From Haladaptatus cibarius D43 (lineage in GTDB: Archaea; Halobacteriota; Halobacteria; Halobacteriales; Haladaptataceae), in the NCBI RefSeq assembly GCF_000710615.1, contig NZ_JDTH01000006.1, positions 62,001 through 126,000 of the forward strand: DNA of 64,000 nt, read 5' to 3'. Every line of letters begins with the position of its first letter. The first letter of the stretch is position 1. The notes under the pieces are model-generated. The model saw only the letters and a program-made list of their open reading frames with translations. It ran no database searches and was not told the DNA's origin. The position numbers and the translations under genes were made by a program. Of this stretch, positions 34,756-49,809 are shown piece by piece.

Positions 34756-35129
34756 ATTCACGTCTCGTATTGGTTACTTTATGTCGTACATCCGATTATT
34801 CGCCTTGCACTTACTCACCAGTGCCGACGCTGGCAATCAATTTTTCGGATTCTTACCTCGAAAACGCTTGAAGTGGTAGTTTTCACCGCTTTTCCGGCGA
34901 CTCACGGTTGTGAACACGTATCACTGCAGTTCTCACAATTCTATGTATGGGAAACAAACTTATTTCTCCCTTACACCTCCTGTAAGCTGCCGTCAGTCAC
35001 AGTATCGATAGCACATCGAGATGCCGCGATGTTTATATCTGCTCGATACGGCTCAATAGCGCTTATGCTGGAACCAACGATTTCCACGATATGGAAACGC
35101 CTATGTGCTCGGCGTATTTGGGTGTGTGT
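34756..35129. other. Intergenic region upstream of the first IclR gene
   Basis: 374 bp with no supported gene. It carries the promoter of the IclR gene; several AT-rich stretches occur but no repeat or palindrome stands out. Confidence 0.45.
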
Positions 35130-35945
35130 ATGACACACTCACCCGGCGACGAGGGGTCGACACAAAGCCTCAAAACGGTAACGACGACGTTCGATATAAT
35201 CGATGCACTCGAATCGCTCGCTGGTGCGGGTGTGACGGAACTGGCGGACCATCTCGATATCTCCAAGAGTGCCGTGTATAAACATCTGTACACGCTGAAA
35301 GAGCGAAAGTACGTCGTGAAGGACGGCAACGACTATCGACTCAGTCTCCAGTTTCTCCTTTTGGGAGAGCACGTTCGAAACCAGAATCCGCTCTTCCGCA
35401 TCGGTAAGCCGGAAATCGAGAAATTGGCGGACGAAACTGGGGAGTACGCACATCTGACGACGGAGCAACACGGTCTTGGAATCAATCTCTGTAAGATTCG
35501 CGGTGAACACGCCGTCGGAACTGACTACCAAATTGCAAAAAAACAGCGTGCGAACTATCTTCACTCGATGGCAACGGGGAAGGCTATTCTCGCGTTTCTT
35601 CCGGAAGAGCGAGTGAACTGGATAATCGACCGGTATGGCCTCCCTGAGATGACCGATTCGACACTCACTGACCGTGAAACGCTGTTCGAATCCCTCGCAG
35701 AGATTCGAGAACAGGGATACGCAGTCAACGATGGTGAGGAAGTCGAGGGTCTTCGTGCCGTCGGTGCCCCGATTCACGACCGGGACAAGTCTGTTCTCGG
35801 TGCGCTGAGCGTATCAGCACCGAAAACACGGCTCAGTGGTGACCAATTCCGCAAACACATTCCGGAGTTGGTGACTCGAACGGCGAACGTCATCGAGGTT
35901 AATCTAAATATGGTCGAACGCTCTTCGGATATCGGTTCGCTCTAA
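35130..35945 (+). CDS. IclR family transcriptional regulator (first copy)
   Basis: 271 aa from ATG 35130. N-terminal winged helix (SLKTVTTTFDIIDALESL then GVTELADHLDISKSAVYKHL) and a C-terminal effector domain with RGEHAVGTDYQIAKK and GKAILAFLPEERV. In haloarchaea IclR proteins often activate sugar or organic-acid catabolism genes. Its position between the M20 carbamoylase gene and a convergent second IclR gene suggests that it controls the amide/ureide genes to its left. The convergent gap contains two copies of a palindromic 25-bp element. Confidence 0.9.
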   Translation: MTHSPGDEGSTQSLKTVTTTFDIIDALESLAGAGVTELADHLDISKSAVYKHLYTLKERKYVVKDGNDYRLSLQFLLLGEHVRNQNPLFRIGKPEIEKLADETGEYAHLTTEQHGLGINLCKIRGEHAVGTDYQIAKKQRANYLHSMATGKAILAFLPEERVNWIIDRYGLPEMTDSTLTDRETLFESLAEIREQGYAVNDGEEVEGLRAVGAPIHDRDKSVLGALSVSAPKTRLSGDQFRKHIPELVTRTANVIEVNLNMVERSSDIGSL

Positions 35946-36063: not shown

Positions 36064-36126
36064 CCGTTGATGCATTCCATGAGTGGATCTACCACGCTAC
36101 GTTTAGCGATACAAAACATACGAAAC

Positions 36127-36888
36127 CTATCTGTAGGAGAGATTGATGCTGATGACGTTTGCGGCTCGCATGACCATATCGGGGACGGTTGACTCCAGAT
36201 GTTCGTCGCGCATCCTACTCGCGGGGCCAGCAACGCTTACAGCGCCACGAACGGTGCCGTCGTTCGTGATAACCGGTGCCGCAACGCACCGAATCCCTTC
36301 GGCCCGTTCTTCCATGTCGAGTGCGTATCCCTGTTCACGAATACGCTCCAAATCATCGAACAGTTCCTCGCGTGTCGAGACGGTGTGCTTCGTACTCGGT
36401 TCGAGGCCGTGGCTCTCGATGATTGCTTCGACGCGGTCTTTCGGCATGTGTGCGAGAATGGCCTTCCCGAGTCCTGTCTGGTGTAGATAGACGCGAGAAC
36501 CGATCCCTGTGTCGAGCGACAGTGCGTTTTCTCCTTCTGCGCGATAGAGGTAGATTCCACGTCCGTGTTCTTCGACGAGAATATTGCCGAGTTCGCCCGT
36601 TTCCTCGGCGAGTTTGTCCACTTCCGGCATTCCCACCTCGTAAATTTTGTGCTGGTTTTTTATCTGTTCGCCGAACTCGAAAAATCGAAGCCCCAATCGG
36701 AATTGGGTTCCGTCTTTCACGACCAGTTCGTTCTCTTCGAGCGTCGTTAGGTGGTTGTGAACCGTTCCCTTCGTAATATCGAGGTGGTTCGAAAGTTCGG
36801 TCACTCCAGCCCCATCCAACTCGGCCACCTTTTTCAGGATTGTGGCGGTGGTTTCCACGGCCTTTACCGGGTTTTTTGCGCGTCCCAT
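36127..36888 (-). CDS. IclR family transcriptional regulator (second copy)
   Basis: 253 aa from ATG 36888 (MGRAKNPVKAVETT...). Winged helix GVTELSNHLDITKGTVHNHL and effector domain with EGENALSLDTGIGSRVYLH, GKAILAHMPKDRV and IREQGYALDMEERAEGIRC. It is clearly paralogous to the first IclR. Its promoter region carries GTTTAG-N5-CTAAAC, 34 bp before the ATG, and the same palindrome lies before the divergent SDR operon. This is the expected arrangement for an autoregulated local regulator of the ribose-type catabolic genes, as with XacR-like IclR activators of pentose degradation. Confidence 0.9.
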   Translation of the reverse strand: MGRAKNPVKAVETTATILKKVAELDGAGVTELSNHLDITKGTVHNHLTTLEENELVVKDGTQFRLGLRFFEFGEQIKNQHKIYEVGMPEVDKLAEETGELGNILVEEHGRGIYLYRAEGENALSLDTGIGSRVYLHQTGLGKAILAHMPKDRVEAIIESHGLEPSTKHTVSTREELFDDLERIREQGYALDMEERAEGIRCVAAPVITNDGTVRGAVSVAGPASRMRDEHLESTVPDMVMRAANVISINLSYR

Positions 36889-36921: not shown

Positions 36922-36940
36922 TGTTTAGTGATTCTAAACA
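36922..36940. promoter_or_regulatory. Candidate IclR operator 1 (19-bp palindrome)
   Basis: TGTTTAG, TGATT, CTAAACA. Perfect 7-bp inverted arms with a 5-base spacer, 34 bp before the second IclR start, so it probably lies in that gene's promoter. A core match occurs at 37108. Confidence 0.65.
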
Positions 36941-37107
36941 TATCGTTGCGCTAACTGTACACTGTATATTTGATTGTTTACGGACGTGCGAGTGTGTAGA
37001 AATTTTCTACAGTCGCCCTTGTGAGTTCTAACGCTTCTATGGAGTCGAAAGCAATCGAAATTAGGGAGGTATGATTTTCGTTCGCTGCGAGCTAGCCGCG
37101 AAAAACG

Positions 37108-37124
37108 GTTTAGCAGGACTAAAC
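37108..37124. promoter_or_regulatory. Candidate IclR operator 2 (17-bp palindrome)
   Basis: GTTTAG, CAGGA, CTAAAC. The same six-base arms and spacer length as the site at 36922, now 66 bp before the SDR start and just upstream of its TATA-like CTTTTACATG (37152-37161), a position that suits an activator. Confidence 0.65.
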
Positions 37125-37189
37125 GCAACGGCGAAAAACGCTCGGCGAAAGCTTTTACATGTGGTGTCTCAGATACTCCTGTGCCGAAT

Positions 37190-37981
37190 ATGGACTATGA
37201 ACTAGATGCAAATGTAGCTCTCGTCACAGCATCGAGTAGCGGCCTCGGAAAGGCGTCGGCGAAAGCCCTCGCGGCCGAGGGTGCGAACGTCGTCATCAAC
37301 GGTCGAAACGAAGACCGTCTCGCGGAAGCCGAAGACGATGTTCGGGCAGTCGCCGAGGGCGACGTGCTCGCCGTGCAAGGCGACCTGACGAACTACGACG
37401 ATATTGAACACCTCGTCGAACGCACCGTCTCCGAGTTCGGCGGAATCGACCACCTCGTAACCAATGCCGGTGGCCCACCGAGCGGCCCGTTCATGGAACT
37501 GGACGACGAGGATTGGTACGGCGCGTTCGACCTCCTCGTGATGAGCGTCGTTCGCCTCGTCCGCGAGGCGGCCCCGCATCTTCGCGAGGACGGTGGCGGA
37601 ACCATCGTCACGATAACCTCTCGAAGCGTCAAAGAGGCGATTCCGTCGCTCGTGCTCTCGAACGCCGTTCGCATGAGCGTCATCGGCCTCGAAAAGACCC
37701 TCTCGAAGGAACTTGCGCCGGAAATCCGGTCGAACGCGGTTCTCCCGGCACCGCACGAGACGGCTCGCCAGCAGGAACTCATTCAGGCTGCCGTCGATAG
37801 AGGGGAGTACGACAGTTACGAGGAGGGCCTCGACGCGAAGGGTGACATCAACCCACTCGGTCGTATCGGCGACCCGATGGAACTCGGTGACGCCGTCGCG
37901 TTCCTCTCCTCGGAGCAGTCGAGTTTCATCAACGGCGTTGCCATCCCCATCGACGGCGGACAGGGCGCGTCCAACCTGTAG
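37190..37981 (+). CDS. SDR-family dehydrogenase-like protein with atypical active site
   Basis: 263 aa from ATG 37190. The Rossmann glycine motif is TASSSGLGKASAKALA, and the region is followed by NAGGPPSGPF as in classical SDRs. The catalytic Tyr-x-x-x-Lys, however, reads Ser-Asn-Ala-Val-Arg in the aligned position (LVLSNAVRMSVIGLEKTL), so the usual Tyr and Lys are missing; Ser and Asn positions are partly kept. A C-terminal INGVAIPIDGG loop is normal. Related SNAVR-type SDRs are widespread. It is the first gene of the operon, two bases before the next gene. Whether it oxidises a sugar, a keto-acid intermediate, or nothing is unresolved. Confidence 0.8.
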   Translation: MDYELDANVALVTASSSGLGKASAKALAAEGANVVINGRNEDRLAEAEDDVRAVAEGDVLAVQGDLTNYDDIEHLVERTVSEFGGIDHLVTNAGGPPSGPFMELDDEDWYGAFDLLVMSVVRLVREAAPHLREDGGGTIVTITSRSVKEAIPSLVLSNAVRMSVIGLEKTLSKELAPEIRSNAVLPAPHETARQQELIQAAVDRGEYDSYEEGLDAKGDINPLGRIGDPMELGDAVAFLSSEQSSFINGVAIPIDGGQGASNL

Positions 37982-37983
37982 CC

Positions 37984-38805
37984 ATGACACGACTTGCACG
38001 AACAATCGACGGTAGACCTATGCTCGGCGATGACGACGGATTCGTTCCGCTTTCGTCCGCCGACCCATCGCTCACGACGATTCGTGACGCCCTTCCGCTC
38101 GCCGCGACGGGCGACCTGCCGACGCCGGACGAAGCGTCGGCGAGCCGCGTTCCCGAACGACACCTTTCGTTCGCCGCGCCGCTCGAACGCCCCGGAAAAC
38201 TGTGGGGAATCGGACTGAACTACGCCGACCACGCGTCGGATTTGAACGAAGACAGCCCGACGGAGCCTGCGAGCTTTATGAAACCCGCGACGGCAGCCAC
38301 CGGCCCTGAGGGGTCGATTCGGCTTCCGCCGCGGGACATCACGAACCGCGTGACCGCGGAGGCAGAACTTGCGTTGGTTATCGGCCAGACGTGTTCCAAC
38401 GTGGACGAAGCCGACGTTGACGACGTTATCGCCGGATACGTCCCCGTCATCGATATGACCGCAGAAGACATCTTGGAGCGAAATCCGCGCTTTTTGACCC
38501 GGTCGAAAAGTTTCGACTCGTTTCTCGTCTTCGGCCCGTCGTTGGTCACGACCGACCAAGTCGGTTCGCTGGACGAACTCTCCGTTAGAACAGTCGTCAA
38601 CGAGGAAGTCGCCGCGGAAAACCGGATTCGGAACATGATGGCGACGCCGCGCGAACTCGTGGCGTTCCACTCGAACGTCATGACGCTCGAACCGGGCGAC
38701 GTTATTTCGACCGGAACGCCCGGTGCGAAACACATCGTTCCCGGCGACAGCGTCAGAGCCGAAGTCGAACGCGTCGGCACCGTCAGTTCGGACGTGGTCG
38801 GATGA
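37984..38805 (+). CDS. Fumarylacetoacetate hydrolase family protein (candidate 2-keto-3-deoxypentonate dehydratase)
   Basis: 273 aa. FAH-fold motifs include KLWGIGLNYADHASD, the metal-site Glu segment EAELALVIGQ, VIDMTAEDILERNPRF and the late GDVISTGTPG. FAH-family members hydrolyse acylpyruvates or dehydrate 2-keto-3-deoxy sugar acids. In haloarchaeal pentose degradation the 2-keto-3-deoxypentonate dehydratase belongs to this family, and the enolase-superfamily dehydratase next door would supply that substrate. The assignment is therefore by context. It starts two bases after the SDR stop. Confidence 0.75.
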   Translation: MTRLARTIDGRPMLGDDDGFVPLSSADPSLTTIRDALPLAATGDLPTPDEASASRVPERHLSFAAPLERPGKLWGIGLNYADHASDLNEDSPTEPASFMKPATAATGPEGSIRLPPRDITNRVTAEAELALVIGQTCSNVDEADVDDVIAGYVPVIDMTAEDILERNPRFLTRSKSFDSFLVFGPSLVTTDQVGSLDELSVRTVVNEEVAAENRIRNMMATPRELVAFHSNVMTLEPGDVISTGTPGAKHIVPGDSVRAEVERVGTVSSDVVG

Positions 38806-38874
38806 GGTTCGAACGTCACTCAAACGTCAGAAAGATTTTAGACACCCTGTGCGCCACATCATAACACACCACCC

Positions 38875-39978
38875 ATGAAAATAGCAGAAGTAGAGAGTTT
38901 CGCCGTATCGATTCCGCTGAAAGAACCCGTCGCCTTCGCAACTCGCGTCGTGGAAGAACGCGACCACGCCATCGTGTACGTCCGAACGGAGGACGGCACC
39001 GAGGGCGTCGGATACTCCCTCGGCTACGGCGGTGCCGACGTCATTGCAAAGGCCGTAGAAAGCGTTCTCGCGCCGATGGTCGAAGGCGAAGACCCCCGTG
39101 ACACGTCTCGCCTCTGGAGCGAGATGTTCGACGCCACGGTGCAAATAGGTCGAAAGGGCGTGATGGTGCGGGCCATCTCCTGCATCGACACAGCCCTCTG
39201 GGACATCAAGGCGAAAGCCGCCGGAATGCCCTTGTACAAACTGCTCGGCGGGCACGCCGACGAAGTCCCGGCATACGCCAGCGGCGGTTACTACCGCGAA
39301 GGGAAGGGCCTCGAAGGCCTCCGCGAGGAGATGGAAACCTACGTTGACCGCGGTCACGACGTGGTCAAAATGAAAGTCGGGCGAAAATCGCTGGAGGAGG
39401 AAGTCGAGCGAGTTCGCGTCGCCCGCGAAGCTATCGGCCCGAACCGAACGCTCCTCATGGACGCGAACGGCAAGTGGAAGAACAAACAGGAAGCCGTCCG
39501 CGCCTGCCGTGCGTTCGAAGAGTACAACCCGTACTTCATCGAGGAACCGGTGATGCCCGACAGCCTCGACCTCTACCGCGAGGTCAACGAATCGCTCGAC
39601 TACGCCGTCGCGGGCGGCGAACTGGAGTTCAACCGCTACGGTTTCGCCGACCTGCTCCGCGAGGACGCCGTCGAAATCATCCAACCCGACGTGACGGTCG
39701 TCGGCGGCGTCACCGAGTGGATGCGCGTCGCCGACATGGCCGCGTGTCACGACATTCCGGTCGCACCGCACTACAACTGGGATCTGCACATCCAACTGCT
39801 CGCCGCCATCGAAAACGGCCTCTGGATAGAGTACTTCTACCGCGACTCGGACGTGAAGGCGTTCGACGACGTGTTGACGTACCCGGTCGAACCGGAAGAC
39901 GGGATGATACAACTCCCACAGCGTCCCGGTCACGGCGTCGAACTCGAACGGGACGCCCTCGAAGAGTTCCGAATCTGA
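38875..39978 (+). CDS. Mandelate racemase/enolase-superfamily sugar-acid dehydratase (candidate ribonate/pentonate dehydratase)
   Basis: 367 aa. Active-site elements are complete: KMKVG gives the KxK motif near residue 165, metal ligands are in LLMDANGKW (Asp), YFIEEPV (Glu) and VAGGELEF (Glu), and the distal base region is VAPHYNWDLHIQ (His). This is a mandelate-racemase-type enolase. In haloarchaea the xylonate/arabinoate (and reportedly ribonate) dehydratases belong to this superfamily. Its product, a 2-keto-3-deoxypentonate, would go to the adjacent FAH-family enzyme. It follows the FAH gene after 69 bp and may have its own promoter. Confidence 0.8.
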   Translation: MKIAEVESFAVSIPLKEPVAFATRVVEERDHAIVYVRTEDGTEGVGYSLGYGGADVIAKAVESVLAPMVEGEDPRDTSRLWSEMFDATVQIGRKGVMVRAISCIDTALWDIKAKAAGMPLYKLLGGHADEVPAYASGGYYREGKGLEGLREEMETYVDRGHDVVKMKVGRKSLEEEVERVRVAREAIGPNRTLLMDANGKWKNKQEAVRACRAFEEYNPYFIEEPVMPDSLDLYREVNESLDYAVAGGELEFNRYGFADLLREDAVEIIQPDVTVVGGVTEWMRVADMAACHDIPVAPHYNWDLHIQLLAAIENGLWIEYFYRDSDVKAFDDVLTYPVEPEDGMIQLPQRPGHGVELERDALEEFRI

Positions 39979-40033
39979 GTAGAGCGGTTCCGACGCCAAC
40001 CGATTACGCAAAAATTCGAATGTGCGGACGCCG

Positions 40034-40759
40034 TTACAGTTCGTACCGTTCGCCGGGCGATAGTTCGGCGATAGTCGGCGCGTTTTCCCCTGCCCGGTCT
40101 GCGAGTTCGACGGCGAACTCTTCGACTTCGTCGCTCCCCGGAACGTAGTGAACCGGAATCACGGTTTCAGTGTCCAACCATCCGGCGGCGACGGCGGCGT
40201 CACGGGGCGGAAGCGGGGCGAGGTCGCCCGGCGCGCTCCCGACAGGGAGCATCACGGTGTCCGGTTCGTTTAGCTCGACGAACAGTTCGAGGTCGCTGAA
40301 CAACGACGTGTCCCCGGCGTAGTAGAGGCTCGCGTCGGGAAAGTCGAACTGAAATCCGAGCGGCATCCCCGACAGTCGTTGCCCGTCCGATTCGAAGTAC
40401 GAGAGATGGCGGGTTTCGAGCACGCGCACCTCGACGCCGAACAGTTCGAACGCGTTGCCCCAGATGACTCGTTCCACGTTTGCTTCTGGAACACCCTCGG
40501 TTACGAGATGGTCGGCGACTGCAGGTTCGGTGTAGACCGTTGCACCCGATTCCGCCGCGATTTCGACGGTGTCCCCGAGATGGTCGTAAGCACCGTGTGT
40601 GACGAAGATTGCGTCTATATCCTCGAAATTCGACACCGTTTCGTCGCTCCATTCGGGTTCGAGAACCCACGGGTCAACGAGTATTCGAACGTCTCCATCC
40701 GTCACTTCGAACGACGAGAGGCCGTAGTACGTGAGGCTGGCCGGTTCTGCTGACGACAT
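40034..40759 (-). CDS. Metallo-beta-lactamase-fold enzyme, UlaG/UPF0173-like (candidate pentonolactonase)
   Basis: 241 aa. The fold is seen in LTYYGLSSFEVTDGDVRILVDPWV, the metal motif FVTHGAYDHLGD, and later YYAGDTSLFSDLE and VIPVHYVPGS. The usual HxHxDH is HGAYDH, so the second histidine is replaced by alanine and metal binding may be altered. UlaG is a lactonase acting on ascorbate-6-phosphate, and a metallo-beta-lactamase-fold lactonase would fit the step between sugar dehydrogenase and dehydratase. The gene is divergent from the extended-SDR dehydrogenase gene with 117 bp between starts, so they probably share regulation. Confidence 0.7.
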   Translation of the reverse strand: MSSAEPASLTYYGLSSFEVTDGDVRILVDPWVLEPEWSDETVSNFEDIDAIFVTHGAYDHLGDTVEIAAESGATVYTEPAVADHLVTEGVPEANVERVIWGNAFELFGVEVRVLETRHLSYFESDGQRLSGMPLGFQFDFPDASLYYAGDTSLFSDLELFVELNEPDTVMLPVGSAPGDLAPLPPRDAAVAAGWLDTETVIPVHYVPGSDEVEEFAVELADRAGENAPTIAELSPGERYEL

Positions 40760-40876
40760 AGCTTCCCCTCTTTTCCCCGGTTACAATACTGTTCCGGCGT
40801 TGACCGGCATGTCCAATTTCGATGACACTGACCTGAACACTTTTGTGAGGTGCCGATAAACGGGTTGCTACAGCAC

Positions 40877-41710
40877 ATGACCACAAACGTCCTACTGACG
40901 GGTGCGTTCGGGCGTGTCGGCACGGCCATCATCGACCACCTCGCAGACAGAGATGAGTACGAGTTCACGTATCTCAACCGGTCGGAACGAGAGGAATACG
41001 ACACGTTCGTCGCGGACGTTTCGAACTACGAGGAGATGCGTCCGGCCTTCGACGACCAAGATGCGGTTATCCACCTCGCTGGCTACCCGGAAACCGACGG
41101 TACGTGGGAACAGATACTACAAAACAACATCATCGGGATGCAGAACACGCTCCAAGCCGCCAGAGACGCGGAGGTGCCGAAGTTCATCTTCGGTTCCACC
41201 AATCACGTCGTCGGCATGTACGAAGCGGAGTTCGCACCCGAACTATACGAACCCGGTTTCGACCTGCTGGTTGACCAAGATTCACCCCGGCGTCCAGACT
41301 CCTACTACGGAACCTCGAAATCGTTCGACGAAGACCTCGGTCGGTACTACGTCGAGAACTACGACTACCCAGAGCAGTTCTACTCGCTTCGGATCTGCTC
41401 GGTTCGCCACGAGGAGTACGACCACCCCTACGGCGACGCAGAACACGGCGCAGACGAAGGAGAGTGGGAGCGAGGTAGTCCAGAATACGATCTGAAAGTC
41501 GCGCGGATGAAGGCGATGTGGCAGTCCCGCCGCGACCTCGCTCAGCAAGTCGATTGCTGTCTGCGAGACGACGACGTGGAATACGACGTATTCTTCGGCG
41601 TCAGCGACAACGACCGCCGATGGTTCAGCATCGAACACGGACGGGACGTTATCGGATACGACCCGCAGGACAACGGCGAGGAGTGGGACGCGCCGCCGGA
41701 GGGGAACTAA
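40877..41710 (+). CDS. Extended-SDR NAD(P)-dependent sugar dehydrogenase (candidate ribose dehydrogenase)
   Basis: 277 aa from ATG 40877 (MTTNVLLTGAFGRVG). The glycine motif is TGAFGRVGTAI, the strand after it contains Asn-Arg for cofactor recognition (TYLNRSERE), and the catalytic pair is in SYYGTSKSFDED (Tyr-x-x-x-Lys). The type matches the uronate-dehydrogenase-like group that includes haloarchaeal L-arabinose dehydrogenase and glucose-6-phosphate dehydrogenase Azf. As I recall, a haloarchaeal ribose dehydrogenase belongs there too. Its stop codon directly precedes the nucleoside hydrolase ATG, which makes ribose from nucleosides the most economical substrate. Confidence 0.8.
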   Translation: MTTNVLLTGAFGRVGTAIIDHLADRDEYEFTYLNRSEREEYDTFVADVSNYEEMRPAFDDQDAVIHLAGYPETDGTWEQILQNNIIGMQNTLQAARDAEVPKFIFGSTNHVVGMYEAEFAPELYEPGFDLLVDQDSPRRPDSYYGTSKSFDEDLGRYYVENYDYPEQFYSLRICSVRHEEYDHPYGDAEHGADEGEWERGSPEYDLKVARMKAMWQSRRDLAQQVDCCLRDDDVEYDVFFGVSDNDRRWFSIEHGRDVIGYDPQDNGEEWDAPPEGN

Positions 41711-42661
41711 ATGACGAAGAAACTGCTCCTCGACGTTGACCCCGGAATCGACGACGCGCTTGCGATTCTGATGGCGCTCGGAAACGACGATGTGGAAGTC
41801 GTCGGCCTGACCACGGTCATGGGGAACACGACCATCGAGAACACAACGAACAACGCCCTCGCACTGCTGGAGTTCGTGGACAGAACCGACATTCCCGTCG
41901 CGGAGGGTGCAGGCCGTCCGTTTGCGGATGAACTCGTGATGGCCGAATACGTCCATGGGCCGGGCGGCGTGCCGGAAACCGTTCGTGAGGCGCTTCCTGA
42001 CCCGTCCACTGACCCCATCGACCAGCATGCCGCCGACTTCATCCTCGAACAAGCGGAGAAGTACGGCGACGACCTCACAATCGCCGCGGTCGGCCCCCAA
42101 ACGAACGTCGCGCTGGCGATGGCGAAAGACCCGACGCTTCCAGATACCGTCGCGGACATCTACCAGATGGGCGGCGCGCTGAAGACGACGGGGAACATCA
42201 CGCCGCAGGCGTCCTTTAATTTCTACGTCGATGCCGCCGCCGCGGCCCGCGTCGTGCAGGACGGGTGGCCGACCGTCGTCGGCCTCGATGTAACTGAACC
42301 GGCGCATCTCCCGCCAGAGGCGCAGAAGCGCTTCCGCGGACGGGGTTCGCTCGGCGACGTTATCGCGGACATCCTCGAATACAAGGCACAGGGGCCGGAC
42401 GGAACGGTCGCCGAAGGTGGTTCCATCACGAGTGACGCGGTTGTCTTGGCAGGTTTCCTCGGCAACCCGCTGACCTACGAGGATGCCTACGTGGAAATCG
42501 ACACGACGGACGGGCCGTCGAACGGCGCGACCGTCTACGACGAACACGGCGTCTACGAGAAACAGCCGAACTGCACCGTCGCGCTCGATGTGGACATCGA
42601 GCGCTGTCGTGAGGTCATCATGTCGAACTTAGAGAAGCTACTGCCCGAGGGAGACGCATGA
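41711..42661 (+). CDS. Nucleoside hydrolase 1
   Basis: 316 aa. The calcium-site motif LLLDVDPGIDDALAIL at the N-terminus and the second signature NITPQASFNFYVDAAAAARV identify the inosine-uridine nucleoside N-ribohydrolase family, which splits ribonucleosides into base and ribose. A late ASP-rich and GPSNGATVYDEHGVYE segment closes the active site. It begins immediately after the sugar dehydrogenase stop and overlaps the next gene by four bases (ATGA). It is paralogous to the protein at 46590, with two segments nearly identical at the nucleotide level but a divergent 222-bp middle. Confidence 0.9.
   Translation: MTKKLLLDVDPGIDDALAILMALGNDDVEVVGLTTVMGNTTIENTTNNALALLEFVDRTDIPVAEGAGRPFADELVMAEYVHGPGGVPETVREALPDPSTDPIDQHAADFILEQAEKYGDDLTIAAVGPQTNVALAMAKDPTLPDTVADIYQMGGALKTTGNITPQASFNFYVDAAAAARVVQDGWPTVVGLDVTEPAHLPPEAQKRFRGRGSLGDVIADILEYKAQGPDGTVAEGGSITSDAVVLAGFLGNPLTYEDAYVEIDTTDGPSNGATVYDEHGVYEKQPNCTVALDVDIERCREVIMSNLEKLLPEGDA
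42155..42262 (+). repeat. Block A shared with 47034-47141 (nucleoside hydrolase paralogues)
   Basis: 108 bp aligned without gaps to the same reading frame at 47034-47141, with seven mismatches by eye, six of them synonymous. The flanking middle segment of the two genes is only about one third identical in protein. This suggests recent gene conversion. Confidence 0.7.
42485..42559 (+). repeat. Block B shared with 47364-47438 (nucleoside hydrolase paralogues)
   Basis: 75 bp with three mismatches to the second paralogue at 47364-47438. It lies exactly 222 bp after block A in both genes, showing colinear mosaic structure. Confidence 0.7.
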
Positions 42662-43110
42662 ATCGAATACTTGCCGTCGTTAAGCCGACGGACACGGATG
42701 TGGAACTGCTCGAAGAGGCTGGCGCGGTCGCCGCGGGAACGGGCGTCGAGGTAGTCGTCCTCGCGCTCGTGTCGGAGGGAAGCGAGGATGCGTCGGTGGA
42801 CTCGATACGGCAGTGGGACGGCTTCGACGCCACCAAAACCGACGAAACGGCGGAAACCGTCAATCGATTTGCGGAGTACCTCGGGAGTCAGATTCTCGAC
42901 CCGTTCGGGGTCGAGTATCTCGCCGTCGGCGAGCGAATCGAAACCACCCGACCGTCGAGCAAAATCATCGACGTCGCGGAAAACCACGACTGTGACCACG
43001 TCTACGTCAGCAACCGCGGTCGGTCGCCGACTGGAAAGGCACTGTTCGGTGACACGACCCAGTCTGTGATTCTGAACTTCGACGGGTTCGTCACGGTGCG
43101 AACTGCGTAA
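42658..43110 (+). CDS. Universal-stress-protein-like single-domain protein
   Basis: 150 aa. Alternating strands at the start (RILAVVKPTD, GVEVVVLALV) and the end (CDHVYVSNRGRSPTGKALFG followed by SVILNFDGFVTV) match a UspA fold, with the G-x2-G-x9-G-type ATP loop degenerate (RGRSPTGKALFGD). It starts within the nucleoside hydrolase stop (ATGA) and ends the operon before the ECF S-component gene. Its role is unknown; the fixed position between nucleoside hydrolase and importer suggests that it may bind a nucleotide or nucleoside-derived ligand. Confidence 0.65.
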   Translation: MNRILAVVKPTDTDVELLEEAGAVAAGTGVEVVVLALVSEGSEDASVDSIRQWDGFDATKTDETAETVNRFAEYLGSQILDPFGVEYLAVGERIETTRPSSKIIDVAENHDCDHVYVSNRGRSPTGKALFGDTTQSVILNFDGFVTVRTA

Positions 43111-43245
43111 CACGGTACGAATCGCATACGGTACGAATAGCGTAAGGACGAAAACGCGCTCACGGTTCCGAATGGAAACGAGGCTTTGGTCGGTTACCCT
43201 CGGGTGAATCGGTCGATTCCTCTCCCGAGGTGGAAGAACCAAACA

Positions 43246-43254
43246 TTTAATAGG
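43246..43254 (+). promoter_or_regulatory. Putative TATA box for the ECF operon
   Basis: TTTAATAGG located about 34 bp before the ATG at 43284, in an AT-rich patch otherwise uncommon here. Fits a promoter for the ECF importer operon. Confidence 0.4.
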
Positions 43255-43283
43255 GGTTATCTCACACTCATTCATGGTACATA

Positions 43284-43913
43284 ATGTCAAGCACAGGTGC
43301 CACGACTAGTACGAGTCGTATCGAACGGTTTCGTGAAAACGTTTCGGAGGATTTCACGACGACAACGTGGGTGCTCATTCCATTGGGTATCGGCATCAAC
43401 GCAATCGGCGGATTCATCGCAAGTACGCTGAAGCTCCCGCTGTTTTTGGACAACATCGGGACGATGCTCATCGGCATCCTCGCCGGACCGTGGGCGGCTG
43501 CGCTGACCGGTGCCCTCGCGAATCTCATTCAAGCGATGCTCGGAAACCCGGTTCAACTTGCGTTCATGCCGGTTCCGGTCGCTATCGGCCTTGTTACGGG
43601 ATTTCTAGCTCGCAGAGGGTGGTTCGACAGCGTGAAGAAGACGATTGTTCCGGCCATCGTCCTCACCGTCGTGGCCACCATCATCGCGACGCCCATCGTC
43701 GTCCTCGTGTTCGGCGGCGTCACCAGTTCAGGAACGAGTTTGGTCACTGCGACACTCGTTGCGACGGGTCGAAGCCTCGTCGAAAGCGCGGCCACCGCAC
43801 AGTTCGCCGTCGAGTTCGTGGACAAAGGTGGGTCGGCCTTCATCGCCTACTTCATCGGAAAGTCGGTTCCGTCCCGATACCTCCCGCCACAGGGGCAAGA
43901 TATATATTCGTAG
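43284..43913 (+). CDS. ECF importer S component (substrate-binding membrane subunit)
   Basis: 209 aa, about six helices. After a short polar N-terminus, LIPLGIGINAIGGFIAS and the loop LPLFLDNIGTMLIGILAGPWAAALTG are characteristic of S components of energy-coupling-factor importers. The end FIAYFIGKSVPSRYLPP is cytosolic. It determines specificity. Its place between two nucleoside hydrolases and beside the sugar-oxidation genes implies a nucleoside or ribose substrate, but no signature for a known vitamin S family is recognised. Confidence 0.8.
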   Translation: MSSTGATTSTSRIERFRENVSEDFTTTTWVLIPLGIGINAIGGFIASTLKLPLFLDNIGTMLIGILAGPWAAALTGALANLIQAMLGNPVQLAFMPVPVAIGLVTGFLARRGWFDSVKKTIVPAIVLTVVATIIATPIVVLVFGGVTSSGTSLVTATLVATGRSLVESAATAQFAVEFVDKGGSAFIAYFIGKSVPSRYLPPQGQDIYS

Positions 43914-44003
43914 TTGGTTCAAGAAAAGGTATGCAACGGAGTTGTGTGGGTTACAATCACCTCTGTCATATGAGGTACATATCAATGCACAAGGAATACA
44001 TCA

Positions 44004-44783
44004 ATGCCTGATTCGGATACCTCGATATACCAACCCGGCGAGAGCATACTGCACAGAATGAATCCGGTGACGGAAATCGTGCTTGCAACCTGTCTCTCGT
44101 TGGTGGTGTTCATCGTCGGCGACTACCGAATCCCGCTCGCGCTGGCGCTCGTTTTGATCGGGTTCGTGTTCGTCGCACGAGTGCACGGCCTCCTCCTCAA
44201 ACTGTACGGAGCAGTTGCCGTGCCGTTCGCGTTCTTCTTGCTCCTCATTCAGGGCATTCTGCTCAGGCCAGCAGACCCGACGGCGTTGTACACGTTCGGT
44301 TCGATAACCGTTTGGGAGTCGGGCTTCGAGCAGGCACGACTGATATTCCTGCGAATCAGCGTCCTCATACTGGCGTTCCTGTTGTTCGCCACGACGGCAC
44401 AGCCACAACGGATGCGTATCGCTCTCATGGAGAAGGGGGTGCCGAGCAAACTCGCATACGTGTTCATCGCATCGCTCCAGATAATCCCGGAAATTCGAGA
44501 TAGAGCAGGGGCCATCTCGGAAGCACAGCAGGCACGTGGACTCGACACCACGGCGGACGTTCGGACGCGCCTTTCGTCCATCGTCGCGCTGTTGGCCCCC
44601 CTGCTCATCAGTACGCTCATCGTCGCAAACACGCGAGCGTTGGCGCTCAACGCCCGCGGATTCCAATCTGAAGGACCACGGACGTACCTGTACGAGGTTT
44701 CCGACCCGACGGGCGAGCGCGTTCTGCGATACCTCGGTGGCGTTGCAGTTATCGCGGCAATCGGATGGAGGATTCTCATATGA
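44004..44783 (+). CDS. ECF importer T component (EcfT)
   Basis: 259 aa, about six to eight helices. The family signature is in FIASLQIIPEIRDRAGAISEAQQARGLDTT near residues 150-182, containing an A-x-x-A-R-G coupling helix, and a second coupling helix ends NARGFQSEGPRTYLYE. It links the S component to the ATPase. The gene ends with an ATGA overlap onto the ATPase gene. Confidence 0.85.
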   Translation: MPDSDTSIYQPGESILHRMNPVTEIVLATCLSLVVFIVGDYRIPLALALVLIGFVFVARVHGLLLKLYGAVAVPFAFFLLLIQGILLRPADPTALYTFGSITVWESGFEQARLIFLRISVLILAFLLFATTAQPQRMRIALMEKGVPSKLAYVFIASLQIIPEIRDRAGAISEAQQARGLDTTADVRTRLSSIVALLAPLLISTLIVANTRALALNARGFQSEGPRTYLYEVSDPTGERVLRYLGGVAVIAAIGWRILI

Positions 44784-46519
44784 GTTTGATAGAACTACAC
44801 GACGTAACGTTTCAGTACGGCACCCAACCTGACGACGAATACGCCGTCAACGACATCGATTTCAGTATCGAAGAGGGCCAGTTCGTCGGAATCACGGGAC
44901 AGAGTGAGGCAGGGAAGGCGACCCTCTGTCGGCTCATCTCCGGGCAGATTCCCCACTTCTACCACGGTGACCTCTCGGGAACGATCACCGTCGAAGGGGC
45001 TTCGACGGTCGAATCGACCGTCGGCGACCTTTCGAAGAAAATCGGATTCGTCTTCGAAAACCCCTACGACCAGCTTACGGGAGCGACCTCGACCGTCCTC
45101 GAAGAGGTCGCGTTCGGACTCGAAAGCCACGGTCTTACACGCGACGAAATGCGCGACCGGGCACGTGACAGCCTCGCCGCAATCGGGGTCGAAGACCTCG
45201 CTGACCGGAACCCGATGCAACTCTCCGGTGGGCAGTGCCAGCGCGTCGCCATCGCATCCGTCATCGCAATGCAACCTGACGTGATGGTTCTCCGGCAACC
45301 CACGGCACAGCTCGACCCGGAGGGAACCGAAGAGGTGTTCGACGTTGTCGGGTCGATGAACGAGGACGGATACACCATCGTGATGGTCAGCCAAGAGATA
45401 GAGCGATTGGTTCCCCACCTCGACCGACTCGTCGTGATGGACGACGGTACAATCCGGTTCGACGGACGGCCGGACAACGTTCTCGTCCGGGCAATCGAGG
45501 AGGGGCTTCCAATCCCCGTTCCCGACCCTGTCGAAATCGGACACCGACTCCGTGACGCCGGAACCGTCTCGGCCGACGAACCGATTCCGGTGACGGAGTC
45601 CGGTTGTCTGTCGGAACTCCGCCGTGTCGGCAACGGTCGGCTTCTCGGAAGCAAAACGGACGGCGGGCACAGCGCTTCGCCGCGCGACGAACCTCTCGAC
45701 GAGACGGCCGACATCGTCCTCGATGAATTGCATCATCAGTACCCAAGCGGTGTCAAGGCGCTTCGCGGCGTCTCCTTCTCGCTCGATGACGGCTGTGTCT
45801 GTCTCATCGGTCAAAACGGTGCGGGAAAATCCACGTTGGTAAAGCACCTGAACGCGCTCCTCGAACCGACCGAGGGAGTTGCGTACATCCGTGGTGCGAA
45901 CACGAGCGAACACACCACGGCCGAACTCGCCCACGAGGTTGGCCTGAGCTTTCAGAATCCGGACGACCAACTCTTCCACAGCACCGTCGAAGAGGAGATA
46001 CAGTATGGCCCACGAAACCTCGACTTTGACGACGAAAAAGTGACGGAAACGACCGAACAGGCGCTACAATTGCTCGGATTAGACGAACGGCGGAACGAGA
46101 ATCCGTACGACTTCGGCGAACCGTGGCGCAAGCGAGTCGCAGTGGCGTCCATCGTTGCGATGGACACGCCGATAGTCGTCCTCGACGAACCGACGAGCGG
46201 ACAGGACGCGCCGGGATACGAACGGCTTGGACACGCCGTCGATACCCTCGCCGACCAGGGAAAACTCGTCGTCATCATCACGCACGACATGGATTTCGTG
46301 CGCGAGCACGCAGACCGAACTGTTCTCCTCGCAGAAGGACAGGTCATCGCGGACGGCGATACACGCGACGTGTTGGGCGATGCCGAAACGCTCTCTCGCT
46401 CGAACGTCCATCCGCCGACGGTGACGCGACTGAGTCTCGAACTCGGCGTCGGTTCGCTCCTCTCCGTCGAGGAGTTACTGGACGCCATCGGCGTTTCGAC
46501 GGACGGTACATCGCCGTAG
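44780..46519 (+). CDS. Fused double ATPase of the ECF importer, asymmetric active sites
   Basis: 579 aa from ATG 44780. NBD1 (about residues 1-240) has GQSEAGKAT (Lys46 but Ala47), the intact signature LSGGQ (148-152), yet its Walker B reads VMVLRQPT with Arg172 and Gln173 in place of Asp and Glu, and its switch His is Gln205. NBD2 (about 315-545) has an intact GQNGAGKST (Lys350), VVLDEPT (Asp469, Glu470) and a switch His (THDMDF), but its signature is FGEPW (445-449) instead of LSGGQ. In the head-to-tail dimer only the NBD2 Walker site facing the NBD1 signature would hydrolyse ATP. It completes the ECF importer. Confidence 0.9.
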   Translation: MSLIELHDVTFQYGTQPDDEYAVNDIDFSIEEGQFVGITGQSEAGKATLCRLISGQIPHFYHGDLSGTITVEGASTVESTVGDLSKKIGFVFENPYDQLTGATSTVLEEVAFGLESHGLTRDEMRDRARDSLAAIGVEDLADRNPMQLSGGQCQRVAIASVIAMQPDVMVLRQPTAQLDPEGTEEVFDVVGSMNEDGYTIVMVSQEIERLVPHLDRLVVMDDGTIRFDGRPDNVLVRAIEEGLPIPVPDPVEIGHRLRDAGTVSADEPIPVTESGCLSELRRVGNGRLLGSKTDGGHSASPRDEPLDETADIVLDELHHQYPSGVKALRGVSFSLDDGCVCLIGQNGAGKSTLVKHLNALLEPTEGVAYIRGANTSEHTTAELAHEVGLSFQNPDDQLFHSTVEEEIQYGPRNLDFDDEKVTETTEQALQLLGLDERRNENPYDFGEPWRKRVAVASIVAMDTPIVVLDEPTSGQDAPGYERLGHAVDTLADQGKLVVIITHDMDFVREHADRTVLLAEGQVIADGDTRDVLGDAETLSRSNVHPPTVTRLSLELGVGSLLSVEELLDAIGVSTDGTSP

Positions 46520-46589
46520 AATCGACCTCGAAGTACCACTCACGCAAGACGCAACCACACAGCCACACTAACACAATCACACGATACAC

Positions 46590-47528
46590 ATGAATACGAA
46601 ACTACTGCTGGACGTAGACCCCGGAAACGACGACGCTATCGCACTGTTCATCGCACTTGCCGACGACGACGTTGATGTCGTCGGCATCACGACGGTGGCG
46701 GGCAACACGACGGTGGACAACGCGACACGAAACACGCTGTCCCTCCTCGAACTGGTCGATAGAACGGACGTTCCCGTTGCGAAGGGCGCGGGCCGTCCGC
46801 TCGCGGACGAACTGGAGATGGCAGAACACGTCCACGGGCCGGACGGCCTCCCCGAGGTGGTCAGAGAGGGCCTTTCCGAGCCATCGACCGAGACGATAGA
46901 CCAGCACGCCGTCGATTTCATCATCGAACAGGCACACGAACACGGCGAGGACTTGACCATCGCGGCGCTCGGGCCGCAGACCAACCTCGCCTTGGCGCTC
47001 GCAAAGGAACCATCGCTTTCCGAGATGGTCGGCGACATCTATCAGATGGGTGGCGCGCTGAAGACGACGGGGAACGTCACGCCGCAGGCGTCCTTTAACT
47101 TCTACGTCGATGCCGCCGCCGCGGCCCGTGTCGTGCAAGATGCGAATCCGAAAGTCGTCGGCCTCGACGTGACGGAACACGTCTACGTGGACACGGAAGA
47201 TATTCTGGAACTCGCCGAGGAGGCGGCCCCCCTTCCCACGATGGCCGCCATTCTGGAGTTCAGTATCGAGGAAGTTCGCTCGAAGTTCGGGCACGACGGT
47301 GGACTGGCGAGCGATGCGGTCGTTCTGGCCGACATCGTCAACGACGCGCTCGACTTCGAAGACGCCTACGTGGAAATCGACACGACGGGCGGGCCGTCGA
47401 ACGGCGCGACCATCTACGACGAACACGGCGTCTACGAAAACCCACCGAACTGCGAGGTAGCGCTCGGTGTGGATGGAGACGCGTACCAGCGCACGGTTCT
47501 CGAAAGTCTTCGTACATTCGTTGAGTAA
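46590..47528 (+). CDS. Nucleoside hydrolase 2
   Basis: 312 aa. LLLDVDPGNDDAIALF holds the calcium-binding aspartates, and VTPQASFNFYVDAAAAARV the substrate segment, as in nucleoside hydrolase 1. The last segment, GPSNGATIYDEHGVYE, is also shared. The middle part (about residues 186-258) is quite different from the paralogue, so its base or sugar preference may differ. It follows the ECF ATPase gene by 70 bp and closes the cluster. The gene is a natural partner for the importer: imported nucleosides would be cleaved to base and ribose. Confidence 0.88.
   Translation: MNTKLLLDVDPGNDDAIALFIALADDDVDVVGITTVAGNTTVDNATRNTLSLLELVDRTDVPVAKGAGRPLADELEMAEHVHGPDGLPEVVREGLSEPSTETIDQHAVDFIIEQAHEHGEDLTIAALGPQTNLALALAKEPSLSEMVGDIYQMGGALKTTGNVTPQASFNFYVDAAAAARVVQDANPKVVGLDVTEHVYVDTEDILELAEEAAPLPTMAAILEFSIEEVRSKFGHDGGLASDAVVLADIVNDALDFEDAYVEIDTTGGPSNGATIYDEHGVYENPPNCEVALGVDGDAYQRTVLESLRTFVE
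47034..47141 (+). repeat. Block A of the nucleoside hydrolase 2 copy
   Basis: 108 bp partner of 42155-42262, same reading frame, seven mismatches by eye. See the paired entries in nucleoside hydrolase 1. Confidence 0.7.
47364..47438 (+). repeat. Block B of the nucleoside hydrolase 2 copy
   Basis: 75 bp partner of 42485-42559 with three mismatches. Distance from block A is 222 bp in both copies. Confidence 0.7.
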
Positions 47529-47650: not shown

Positions 47651-47881
47651 ATGTTTGGTTGGAGTTCCGGTCGGAACGAAAAACTCGCTCTTCGACTTAG
47701 CGACGCGCGAATCGTCTGCAACTTGTGTGGTCGATCATATCCGGTGACGGCCCTCTCGAAGTTGGCGTCTGTGAGTGCGAACGGTACGTATTGTCGTCGC
47801 ACACAGTATGGAAATTTGTATATAACTGCGCACCCAACAATCGGTAAATGGAATCGACACAGCAGACGCAACCGCAGGTAG
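47651..47881 (+). CDS. Small Cys-motif protein upstream of the SMC-like gene (possible)
   Basis: 76 aa. ATG 47651 lies 29 bp after a TATA-like TTATAATT (47618-47625), which fits a leaderless gene. It contains ARIVCNLCGRSYP with a CxxC and a later Cys, so it could bind zinc with a partner. Its last 34 bp overlap the SMC-like start in a different frame, and the SMC gene's own TATA box lies inside it, which casts some doubt. Codon usage is not decisive. Confidence 0.35.
   Translation: MFGWSSGRNEKLALRLSDARIVCNLCGRSYPVTALSKLASVSANGTYCRRTQYGNLYITAHPTIGKWNRHSRRNRR
47819..47825 (+). promoter_or_regulatory. Putative TATA box of the SMC-like gene
   Basis: TATATAA centred 26 bp before the ATG at 47848, optimal spacing for a leaderless haloarchaeal transcript. 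Confidence 0.6.
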
Positions 47882-49809
47882 AGGTTTCCGCACACAACAT
47901 CGGCGGAATTGACCGGACTGCCGTTACCTTCTCTCCGGGTGTGACTATCCTCACTGGTCGAAACGCGACGAACCGAACGTCGTTCCTCCAAGCCATCATG
48001 GCGGCGCTCGGCAGTGAGCGAGCCTCGGTCAAGGCTGATGCCGACGAAGGATCGGTCGAACTCTCCATCGGTGACGAAACCTACACACGAACGCTCACCC
48101 GGAAAAACGGCACTATTGCAACGAGCGGCGACCCGTATCTCGACGACGCGGAACTCATCGATCTCTTTTCATTCTTGCTCGAATCGAACGAAGCGCGACG
48201 CGCGGTCGCGCGGGGAGACGACCTCCGGAATCTCATCATGCGTCCCGTCGATACCGAAGCGATTCAGACGGAAATCGAGCGACTCACTGCCGAGAAACGT
48301 CGCATCGACGACGAACTGGAGGAGTTGGAGTCGCTCGGTCAAACGCTTCCGACGCTCGAAGAGAAGCAAGCCCGATTGGCGAACGAAATCGAAGCGAAAC
48401 GAGCAACGCTCGAAGCGAAAGAAGCAGAGCTAGAAGCGGCGGATGCTGACCTCGGTGAGACTCGTGCGGAACAAAGCGAACTGGAATCGAAGTTGGAGAC
48501 GCTTCGTGAAACGCGGTCACATCTGGAAGACATTCGGTTCAAAATCGGAACGGAAGAGGACAGTATCGAAGCATTACAGAACGAACTCGCCGAACTCGAA
48601 GACGAGCAAGCCGACCTCTCCGACGTCTCGACCGACACGGTTTCGGAATACGACCAGCGACTGGGAACGCTCCGCGAACGCAAACAACAGCTCAATTCGG
48701 TCGTGAGCGAACTGCAGACGATTATCCAGTTCAACGAGGAGATGCTCGGCGGGACCAATCCAGATATTCGCGCTGCACTCCAGTCGGAAGCCGAAACGGG
48801 CGGCGAGAACGGGTCAGTTACCGACCAACTCGTCGCCGAAACGGAGACCGTCGTCTGCTGGACGTGTGGAACGGACGTCGAAAAGCAGACAATCGAATCG
48901 ACGATCGACCAACTTCGAACGTTTCGTCAAGAAACGCTCGACGAACGCAGTGATCTGAGCGCCGAGATTGACGACCTCGAAGCGGAGAAAGCAGAACTCG
49001 AAACGAAACGACAGAAACGGGATAGCATCGAACAGCGTAGAAAACAACTCGAAACCGAACTCGACGACCGGAACGCCCGACTCGACGACCTCCGCGACGA
49101 ACGCGCCAGCGTAACCGGCGACATCGAAGCGCTCGAAGAGACGGTCGAGGAACTCGAACAGGAAGATTACAGCCAGCTACTCGACTTGCATCGTGAGGCG
49201 AATCAACTCGAATTCGAACTGGAGCGGCTCGAAACTGACCTCGAAGACGTGGAATCAGAACGTTCGAATATCGAAGATAAACTGTCCGAAAAGGAAAAAC
49301 TGGAAGACCGACGAGCCGAGATTCGAGACGAATTGGCAGACCTCCGGACGAGAATCGAGCAGATCGAAGCCGACGCCGTAGAGGAGTTCAACGAACATAT
49401 GGCGCGCATGCTCGACCTGCTCGACTACGAAAACCTCGAACGGATTTGGATAGAACGCACGGAGCGAACTGTTCGTGAGGGTCGGCGGAAAGTTACCAAA
49501 AGCGTGTTCGAACTGCATATCGTCCGGAGTACGGAGTCCGGTGCAACCTACGAGGATACGATAGACCATCTCAGCGAGAGCGAACGGGAAGTCACCGGCC
49601 TCGTGTTTGCGCTTGCGGGGTATCTCGTTCACGAAGTGTACGACCACGTTCCGTTCATCCTTCTCGACTCGCTCGAAGCAATCGACTCGAACCGTATTGC
49701 GAGACTCGTGAACTATTTCAGCGACTATGCGGGGTATCTCGTGGCTGCACTGCTACCGGAGGACGCCGCCGCGCTCGACGACGAGTACGAGCGCGTCGCC
49801 GAAATCTAA
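47848..49809 (+). CDS. Archaea-specific SMC/Rad50-like coiled-coil protein
   Basis: 653 aa. A nucleotide-binding head begins with VSAHNIGGIDRTAVTFSPG. The Walker A position reads GRNATNRTS (37-45), in which the usual second Gly and Lys are Asn and Arg. Long heptad-rich coiled coils (about 130-320 and 345-520) flank a zinc-hook-like CWTC (Cys337, Cys340) similar to Rad50. The C-terminal head has LSESEREVTGLVFAL in the signature position and FILLDSLEAID in the Walker B position, with Ser where Glu is normal. I recognise it as the haloarchaeal SMC-related group; some relatives affect cell shape. ATP hydrolysis is uncertain. Confidence 0.8.
   Translation: MESTQQTQPQVEVSAHNIGGIDRTAVTFSPGVTILTGRNATNRTSFLQAIMAALGSERASVKADADEGSVELSIGDETYTRTLTRKNGTIATSGDPYLDDAELIDLFSFLLESNEARRAVARGDDLRNLIMRPVDTEAIQTEIERLTAEKRRIDDELEELESLGQTLPTLEEKQARLANEIEAKRATLEAKEAELEAADADLGETRAEQSELESKLETLRETRSHLEDIRFKIGTEEDSIEALQNELAELEDEQADLSDVSTDTVSEYDQRLGTLRERKQQLNSVVSELQTIIQFNEEMLGGTNPDIRAALQSEAETGGENGSVTDQLVAETETVVCWTCGTDVEKQTIESTIDQLRTFRQETLDERSDLSAEIDDLEAEKAELETKRQKRDSIEQRRKQLETELDDRNARLDDLRDERASVTGDIEALEETVEELEQEDYSQLLDLHREANQLEFELERLETDLEDVESERSNIEDKLSEKEKLEDRRAEIRDELADLRTRIEQIEADAVEEFNEHMARMLDLLDYENLERIWIERTERTVREGRRKVTKSVFELHIVRSTESGATYEDTIDHLSESEREVTGLVFALAGYLVHEVYDHVPFILLDSLEAIDSNRIARLVNYFSDYAGYLVAALLPEDAAALDDEYERVAEI

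Follow-up and report, generated by a model that had tools for sequence, protein, structure and literature searches.

A conserved haloarchaeal gene cluster that may couple nucleoside uptake and hydrolysis to the oxidative breakdown of ribose

The window analysed here (the whole stretch of 64,000 nucleotides from the 324,664-bp contig NZ_JDTH01000006.1 of Haladaptatus cibarius D43, a host genome with its nearest named relatives in Haladaptatus) carries a gene cluster in which enzymes of the sugar-acid type are combined with two nucleoside hydrolases (NH1 and NH2) and an energy-coupling factor (ECF) importer. The conserved order of the unit is an IclR regulator, a short-chain dehydrogenase/reductase (SDR), a fumarylacetoacetate hydrolase (FAH) superfamily protein and an enolase-type dehydratase (ENO), a metallo-beta-lactamase-fold (MBL) protein in antisense, an Azf-like SDR, NH1, a Usp protein, the ECF S, T and A-A' components and NH2. 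A first-pass annotation had named the same types of regulator, enzymes, hydrolases, Usp protein and importer, and each one was matched in Pfam/NCBIfam searches; the complete ECF importer that it described was found with S (PF12822), T (PF02361) and fused A-A' (TIGR04520 and TIGR04521) all present together. The starts of the SDR (37190), Azf-like (40877), ECF ATPase (44780) and IclRb genes were taken from annotated orthologues.

36127..36888, minus strand: IclRb, IclR-family regulator (PF01614/PF09339; best NCBIfam model BhcR, below cut-off)
37190..37981, plus strand: classical SDR, proposed 2-keto-3-deoxypentonate 4-dehydrogenase (PF13561); adjoins FAH in nucleoside-type clusters
37984..38805, plus strand: FAH-superfamily protein, proposed 2,4-diketo-3-deoxypentonate hydrolase giving pyruvate and glycolate (PF01557)
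38875..39978, plus strand: ENO, enolase-superfamily (MR/MLE) acid-sugar dehydratase, proposed ribonate dehydratase (PF13378/PF02746)
40034..40759, minus strand: UPF0173-type MBL-fold protein, possible ribonolactonase (PRK00685 just above cut-off)
40877..41710, plus strand: Azf/uronate-dehydrogenase-like SDR of the extended type, proposed to act as ribose 1-dehydrogenase (PF01370; below the NCBIfam Azf cut-off)
41711..42661, plus strand: NH1 (PF01156; DVDPGIDD calcium motif kept)
42658..43110, plus strand: UspA-like protein (PF00582; position kept in ECF-type clusters)
43284..43913, plus strand: ECF S component, proposed nucleoside-binding (PF12822 above cut-off; nearest NCBIfam CD3073 family, below cut-off)
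44004..44783, plus strand: ECF T component (PF02361)
44780..46519, plus strand: ECF A-A' fused ATPase (TIGR04520 and TIGR04521 above cut-off)
46590..47528, plus strand: NH2 (PF01156-type; NCBIfam RihA/RihC-like, below cut-offs)

The annotation had placed these genes, the IclR regulator included, in a single run from 36922 to 47528 with many 0-4 bp junctions, and this picture has to be revised. The IclR gene (about 36127-36888, minus strand) lies just outside that range, and given that both it and the MBL gene are antisense, the cluster consists of several co-directional units and not of one run. Tight junctions were found at four places (SDR-FAH 2 bp, Azf-NH1 0, NH1-Usp -4 and ECF T-ECF A -4), the remaining ones being 69-173 bp.

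When the neighbourhood was compared in related genomes, a check that the annotation had proposed, the same gene order was found in several genera (Haladaptatus species, Halogranum amylolyticum, Halegenticoccus soli, H. tardaugens and Halomarina sp. BND7), which indicated that the grouping is not due to chance. Halocatena marina and Halogranum rubrum retain the core SDR-FAH-ENO-Azf-NH1-NH2 but have a CUT1-type ABC importer alongside it in place of the ECF genes; this variant also carries nucleoside-deoxyribosyltransferase-like genes and, in Halocatena, cytidine deaminase. Two Haladaptatus loci hold SDR-FAH-ENO only. The cluster-linked ENO grouped in a single 13-row clade (SH-aLRT 95) of a quick tree built from 83 ENO sequences, and the most suitable reading of these sequences is that the nucleoside genes were gained once and lost twice.

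Relatives of ENO that are about 63% identical (L089-L131, e.g. L123, L126 and L092) were considered as nucleoside clusters and rejected, as no nucleoside hydrolase, Azf or ECF-S match was obtained at the cut-offs used. They belong to a cluster that is widespread in haloarchaea and holds SDR, FAH and a second enolase-type gene and, where the genes were read, TRAP-type transporter, cupin and LarA-like genes (by eye); it is possibly a sugar-acid diketo-hydrolase cluster. A further locus (L196) holds relatives of the Azf-like protein (76%), SDR (77%), FAH (63%) and IclR (61%) next to what by eye is a dipeptide-type ABC importer; no nucleoside hydrolase or ECF-S match was found there, and the same core is perhaps used for another substrate.

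Homologues of the ECF S component were detected in 11 of 392 haloarchaeal genomes, host included (E <= 1e-20). Outside the present cluster type, one ECF module (L205) lies with nucleoside hydrolase, adenine deaminase and PfkB genes, three (L210, L212 and L214) each adjoin a nucleoside hydrolase and one (L206) adjoins adenine deaminase. Four more (L207, L208, L209 and L213) adjoin ADP-ribosylglycohydrolase (PF03747; scanned in L207 and L209, with L208 and L213 looking alike), and L211 is without a nucleoside hydrolase, adenine deaminase or ADP-ribosylglycohydrolase neighbour. These neighbour genes support nucleosides or related ribosides as the substrate of the importer. The first half of the fused ATPase is degenerate, with LRQP and not LDEP as Walker B (LQQP in most other cluster copies), and in the second half Walker A and B are intact and LSGGQ is absent; the ECF ATPases of the other loci compared retain LDEP in the first half. 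Judged from these motifs, one ATP site of the fused protein looks dead.

The regulatory features at the upstream end are the following.

35091..35945, plus strand: IclRa, second IclR-type regulator (NCBIfam IclR families, below cut-off), convergent with IclRb
36101..36117: palindrome copy with one mismatch, GTTTAGCGATACAAAAC, just beyond the IclRb end
36923..36939: first exact copy of the operator-like palindrome GTTTAG-N5-CTAAAC, located 34 bp in front of IclRb
37108..37124: second exact copy of the palindrome, 65 bp ahead of the SDR start

Only two exact matches to the palindrome exist in the whole 3.93-Mb genome, both between IclRb and the SDR gene, and besides the one-mismatch site next to IclRb two more such sites occur elsewhere. 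Most orthologous clusters likewise carry the palindrome ahead of their SDR gene, with 0-2 mismatches; among those compared it was not found at this position in Halocatena. Upstream of Azf, ECF-S or NH2 no copy above shuffled expectation was found in the window. IclRb is presumed to be the local regulator. A homologue of IclRa (56%) was found next to this catabolic core in Halocatena (L078), in Halogranum rubrum (L086/L197) and in one Haladaptatus (L038), and IclRa possibly belongs to the system as well.

The first-pass annotation had supposed that the catabolic genes are fed by imported nucleosides, and the comparative data bear this out: the core is not separated from the nucleoside hydrolases when the importer is exchanged, and elsewhere the ECF module adjoins nucleoside hydrolase or adenine deaminase genes. 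Given in addition the conserved order and the dedicated palindrome, it is well supported by the gene neighbourhood that the cluster serves nucleoside catabolism, and we regard this as very probable.

In the proposed mechanism nucleosides would enter via the ECF importer or, in the form found in Halocatena and Halogranum rubrum, via the ABC importer, and would be hydrolysed by NH1 and NH2 to base and ribose. The Azf-like dehydrogenase would convert ribose to ribonolactone, which would be opened to ribonate by the MBL protein or by water, and the enolase-type dehydratase would form 2-keto-3-deoxyribonate. The SDR would then oxidise this compound at C4 and the FAH protein would cleave the resulting 2,4-diketo acid to pyruvate and glycolate, following the logic of Route III.

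The gene set (dehydrogenase, possible lactonase and enolase-type dehydratase) fits an oxidative breakdown of ribose, as far as sequence can tell. The nearest solved structures of the Azf-like SDR are uronate dehydrogenases, and the catalytic residues of ENO (K165/K167, D196, E223, E249, D272 and H299) are invariant in 16 sequences. That ribose is oxidised as far as 2-keto-3-deoxyribonate appears quite likely. A 2-deoxyaldonate cannot undergo 2,3-dehydration by an enolase-type dehydratase. The oxidative deoxyribose route (PMC6365646) was rejected because of this incompatibility.

Several observations weigh against the scheme. In NH1 and NH2 the calcium site is conserved (DVDPGxDD and the final Asp), and the group I catalytic His, tested as the residue directly preceding the last calcium-ligand Asp, is Ser in all cluster copies compared; the nucleoside hydrolases adjoining ECF modules in other loci retain the His. 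A CU-NH isozyme without the catalytic His has been described (PMC8910321). The metal motif of the MBL protein reads HGAYDH in place of HxHxDH, with one His lost, in 10/10 sequences compared, and no MBL copy adjoins the Halocatena cluster. The SDR lacks the triad Tyr and Lys, since LSNxxR replaces YxxxK in 22/22 orthologues aligned; related solved SDR structures share LSNxxR, and the characterised 2-keto-3-deoxy-L-fuconate (L-KDF) 4-dehydrogenase uses Ser-Tyr-Lys (PMC11199699). In the FAH protein the catalytic Glu is replaced by Asp. Finally, relatives of the enolase and the Azf-like protein also occur in non-nucleoside clusters, and ribose specificity therefore depends on the gene neighbourhood.

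Part of these data would suit a system in which a special riboside (a modified nucleoside, nicotinamide riboside or similar) or a non-ribose glycoside is imported and hydrolysed and the sugar-acid module acts on its sugar. Such a substrate would go with the loss of the leaving-group His, with the enolase, SDR and FAH homologues serving non-nucleoside clusters in many haloarchaea and with the ADP-ribosylglycohydrolase genes beside related ECF modules, but the intact calcium-site motifs and the cytidine deaminase and deoxyribosyltransferase-like genes of the ABC variant argue for ordinary nucleosides, and we consider a special substrate rather unlikely.

For the end of the pathway, the first-pass annotation had assumed an FAH-type dehydratase followed by a semialdehyde dehydrogenase that was missing from the window, and this assumption did not hold up well. 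The FAH protein is 35% identical, in a full-length alignment, to the annotated haloarchaeal RhcF (2,4-diketo-3-deoxy-L-rhamnonate hydrolase) and retains the catalytic His; its match to NCBIfam DhyDRhmHlse is below cut-off, and the host genome has only two FAH-superfamily genes. None of the nucleoside-type clusters was found to have an aldehyde dehydrogenase (ALDH) gene within about 10 kb. With the haloarchaeal 2,5-dioxovalerate dehydrogenase (KGSADH) family NF052305 the host scored 403.5 bits at best against a cut-off of 750, which was passed in one control genome and in each of the nine other genomes searched. The semialdehyde dehydrogenase is thus probably not needed rather than missing, and given the SDR gene in front of FAH, the likeness of FAH to RhcF, the lack of ALDH genes near the clusters and the low KGSADH score of the host, the diketo-hydrolase end is moderately favoured as the better of the two readings. 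Route III, which ends in this way, is biochemically established in bacteria and gives pyruvate and glycolate (PMC6336799).

An FAH dehydratase followed by a semialdehyde dehydrogenase, ending in alpha-ketoglutarate as in the D-ribose route described in Haloarcula (PMC8551123), would leave the neighbouring SDR without a role and goes poorly with the hydrolase-type HxxD at the catalytic position of FAH and with the RhcF-like alignment. It still has a case, because 2-keto-3-deoxypentonate dehydratases occur in the FAH/MhpD family (PMC6336799) and other cluster-bearing genomes, which also speak against the diketo-hydrolase end here, possess KGSADH family members that they could use; the host itself has other ALDH genes. 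Taken together, this ending is unlikely.

SDR-FAH-ENO was also considered as an L-rhamnose (rhc) cluster. This was rejected because the rhc partners in Haloarcula pelagica differ (mutarotase, aldo-keto reductase, SMP-30 and mannonate dehydratase) and its rhc SDR shares just 31% identity with the SDR of the window.

A last point against oxidation of the ribose is that the host has an R15P isomerase, a nearby ribose-1-phosphate kinase (contig C1) and PNP/UDP-family phosphorylases, which match a known haloarchaeal route (PMC9700705). The cluster could then serve mainly nucleobase salvage, with ribose entering the phosphorylative pentose bisphosphate pathway and the oxidative genes being neighbours with another substrate. 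Hydrolases give free ribose and not ribose 1-phosphate, and SDR, FAH, ENO, Azf and both nucleoside hydrolases remain together despite the exchange of the importer, so that base salvage as the main function is very improbable.

The proposal as a whole, an IclR-controlled nucleoside cluster with an oxidative ribose route that ends in diketo-hydrolase cleavage, has all its substrates and reactions inferred and is in our judgement slightly favoured. That a complete archaeal hydrolytic-oxidative pathway, with a dedicated ECF importer, His-less nucleoside hydrolases and conversion of ribose to pyruvate and glycolate, exists beside the phosphorylative route in the same genome is a more tentative suggestion, which we would place a little short of an even chance. 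If true, nucleosides from lysed cells would support haloarchaea by a second, oxidative route, in which phosphorylation of ribose is unnecessary and which ends in pyruvate and glycolate, and nucleosides would become the substrate of an ECF importer family. The compactness of the cluster and its presence in several genera make these ideas directly testable.

By analogy with that of its Haladaptatus relatives, the cluster is probably plasmid-borne. Upstream, a hydantoinase/carbamoylase-family amidase (33505-34755; allantoate amidohydrolase model above cut-off) lies near an SSS symporter and an M20-type amidohydrolase; it was left out of the cluster because it is kept in H. litoreus but absent from the other clusters. 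An SMC-like protein (47848-49809) follows immediately downstream, and in Haloferax gibbonsii pHG3 an annotated archaea-specific SMC-related protein likewise adjoins a catabolic cluster.

No report of nucleoside import by an ECF system, or of the breakdown of nucleoside ribose via ribonate, was found in the literature, most subscription papers being outside the coverage; likewise no substrate was found assigned to this ECF importer family, and nothing relevant on CD3073. ECF importers with a CD3073-family S component (NF045596) also have S, T and A-A' in one module, whereas the S component of the present cluster scores below the cut-off of that family and cluster-linked copies have a degenerate first ATPase half. 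The haloarchaeal non-carboxylating pentose bisphosphate pathway, which is phosphorolytic and converts nucleoside ribose to dihydroxyacetone phosphate and ethylene glycol (PMC9700705), also channels nucleoside ribose to central metabolism, but the cluster contains hydrolases and lacks a kinase: neither a nucleoside phosphorylase nor a ribose-1-phosphate kinase nor an R15P isomerase is among its genes, family members being present elsewhere in the genome. The oxidative D-ribose pathway of Haloarcula, compared here by its description, likewise leads from free ribose via the lactone to ribonate and then to an enolase-superfamily dehydratase; here, in contrast, the ribose would derive from imported nucleosides, the end looks like that of a diketo-hydrolase pathway and the host KGSADH is below cut-off. 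Although the substrate here would be ribonate, the cluster SDR is without the canonical Tyr/Lys and the cluster FAH has Asp for Glu, the bacterial Route III (PMC6336799) and the haloarchaeal L-rhamnose rhc pathway share with the cluster the combination of a sugar-acid dehydratase, an SDR and an FAH-type hydrolase.

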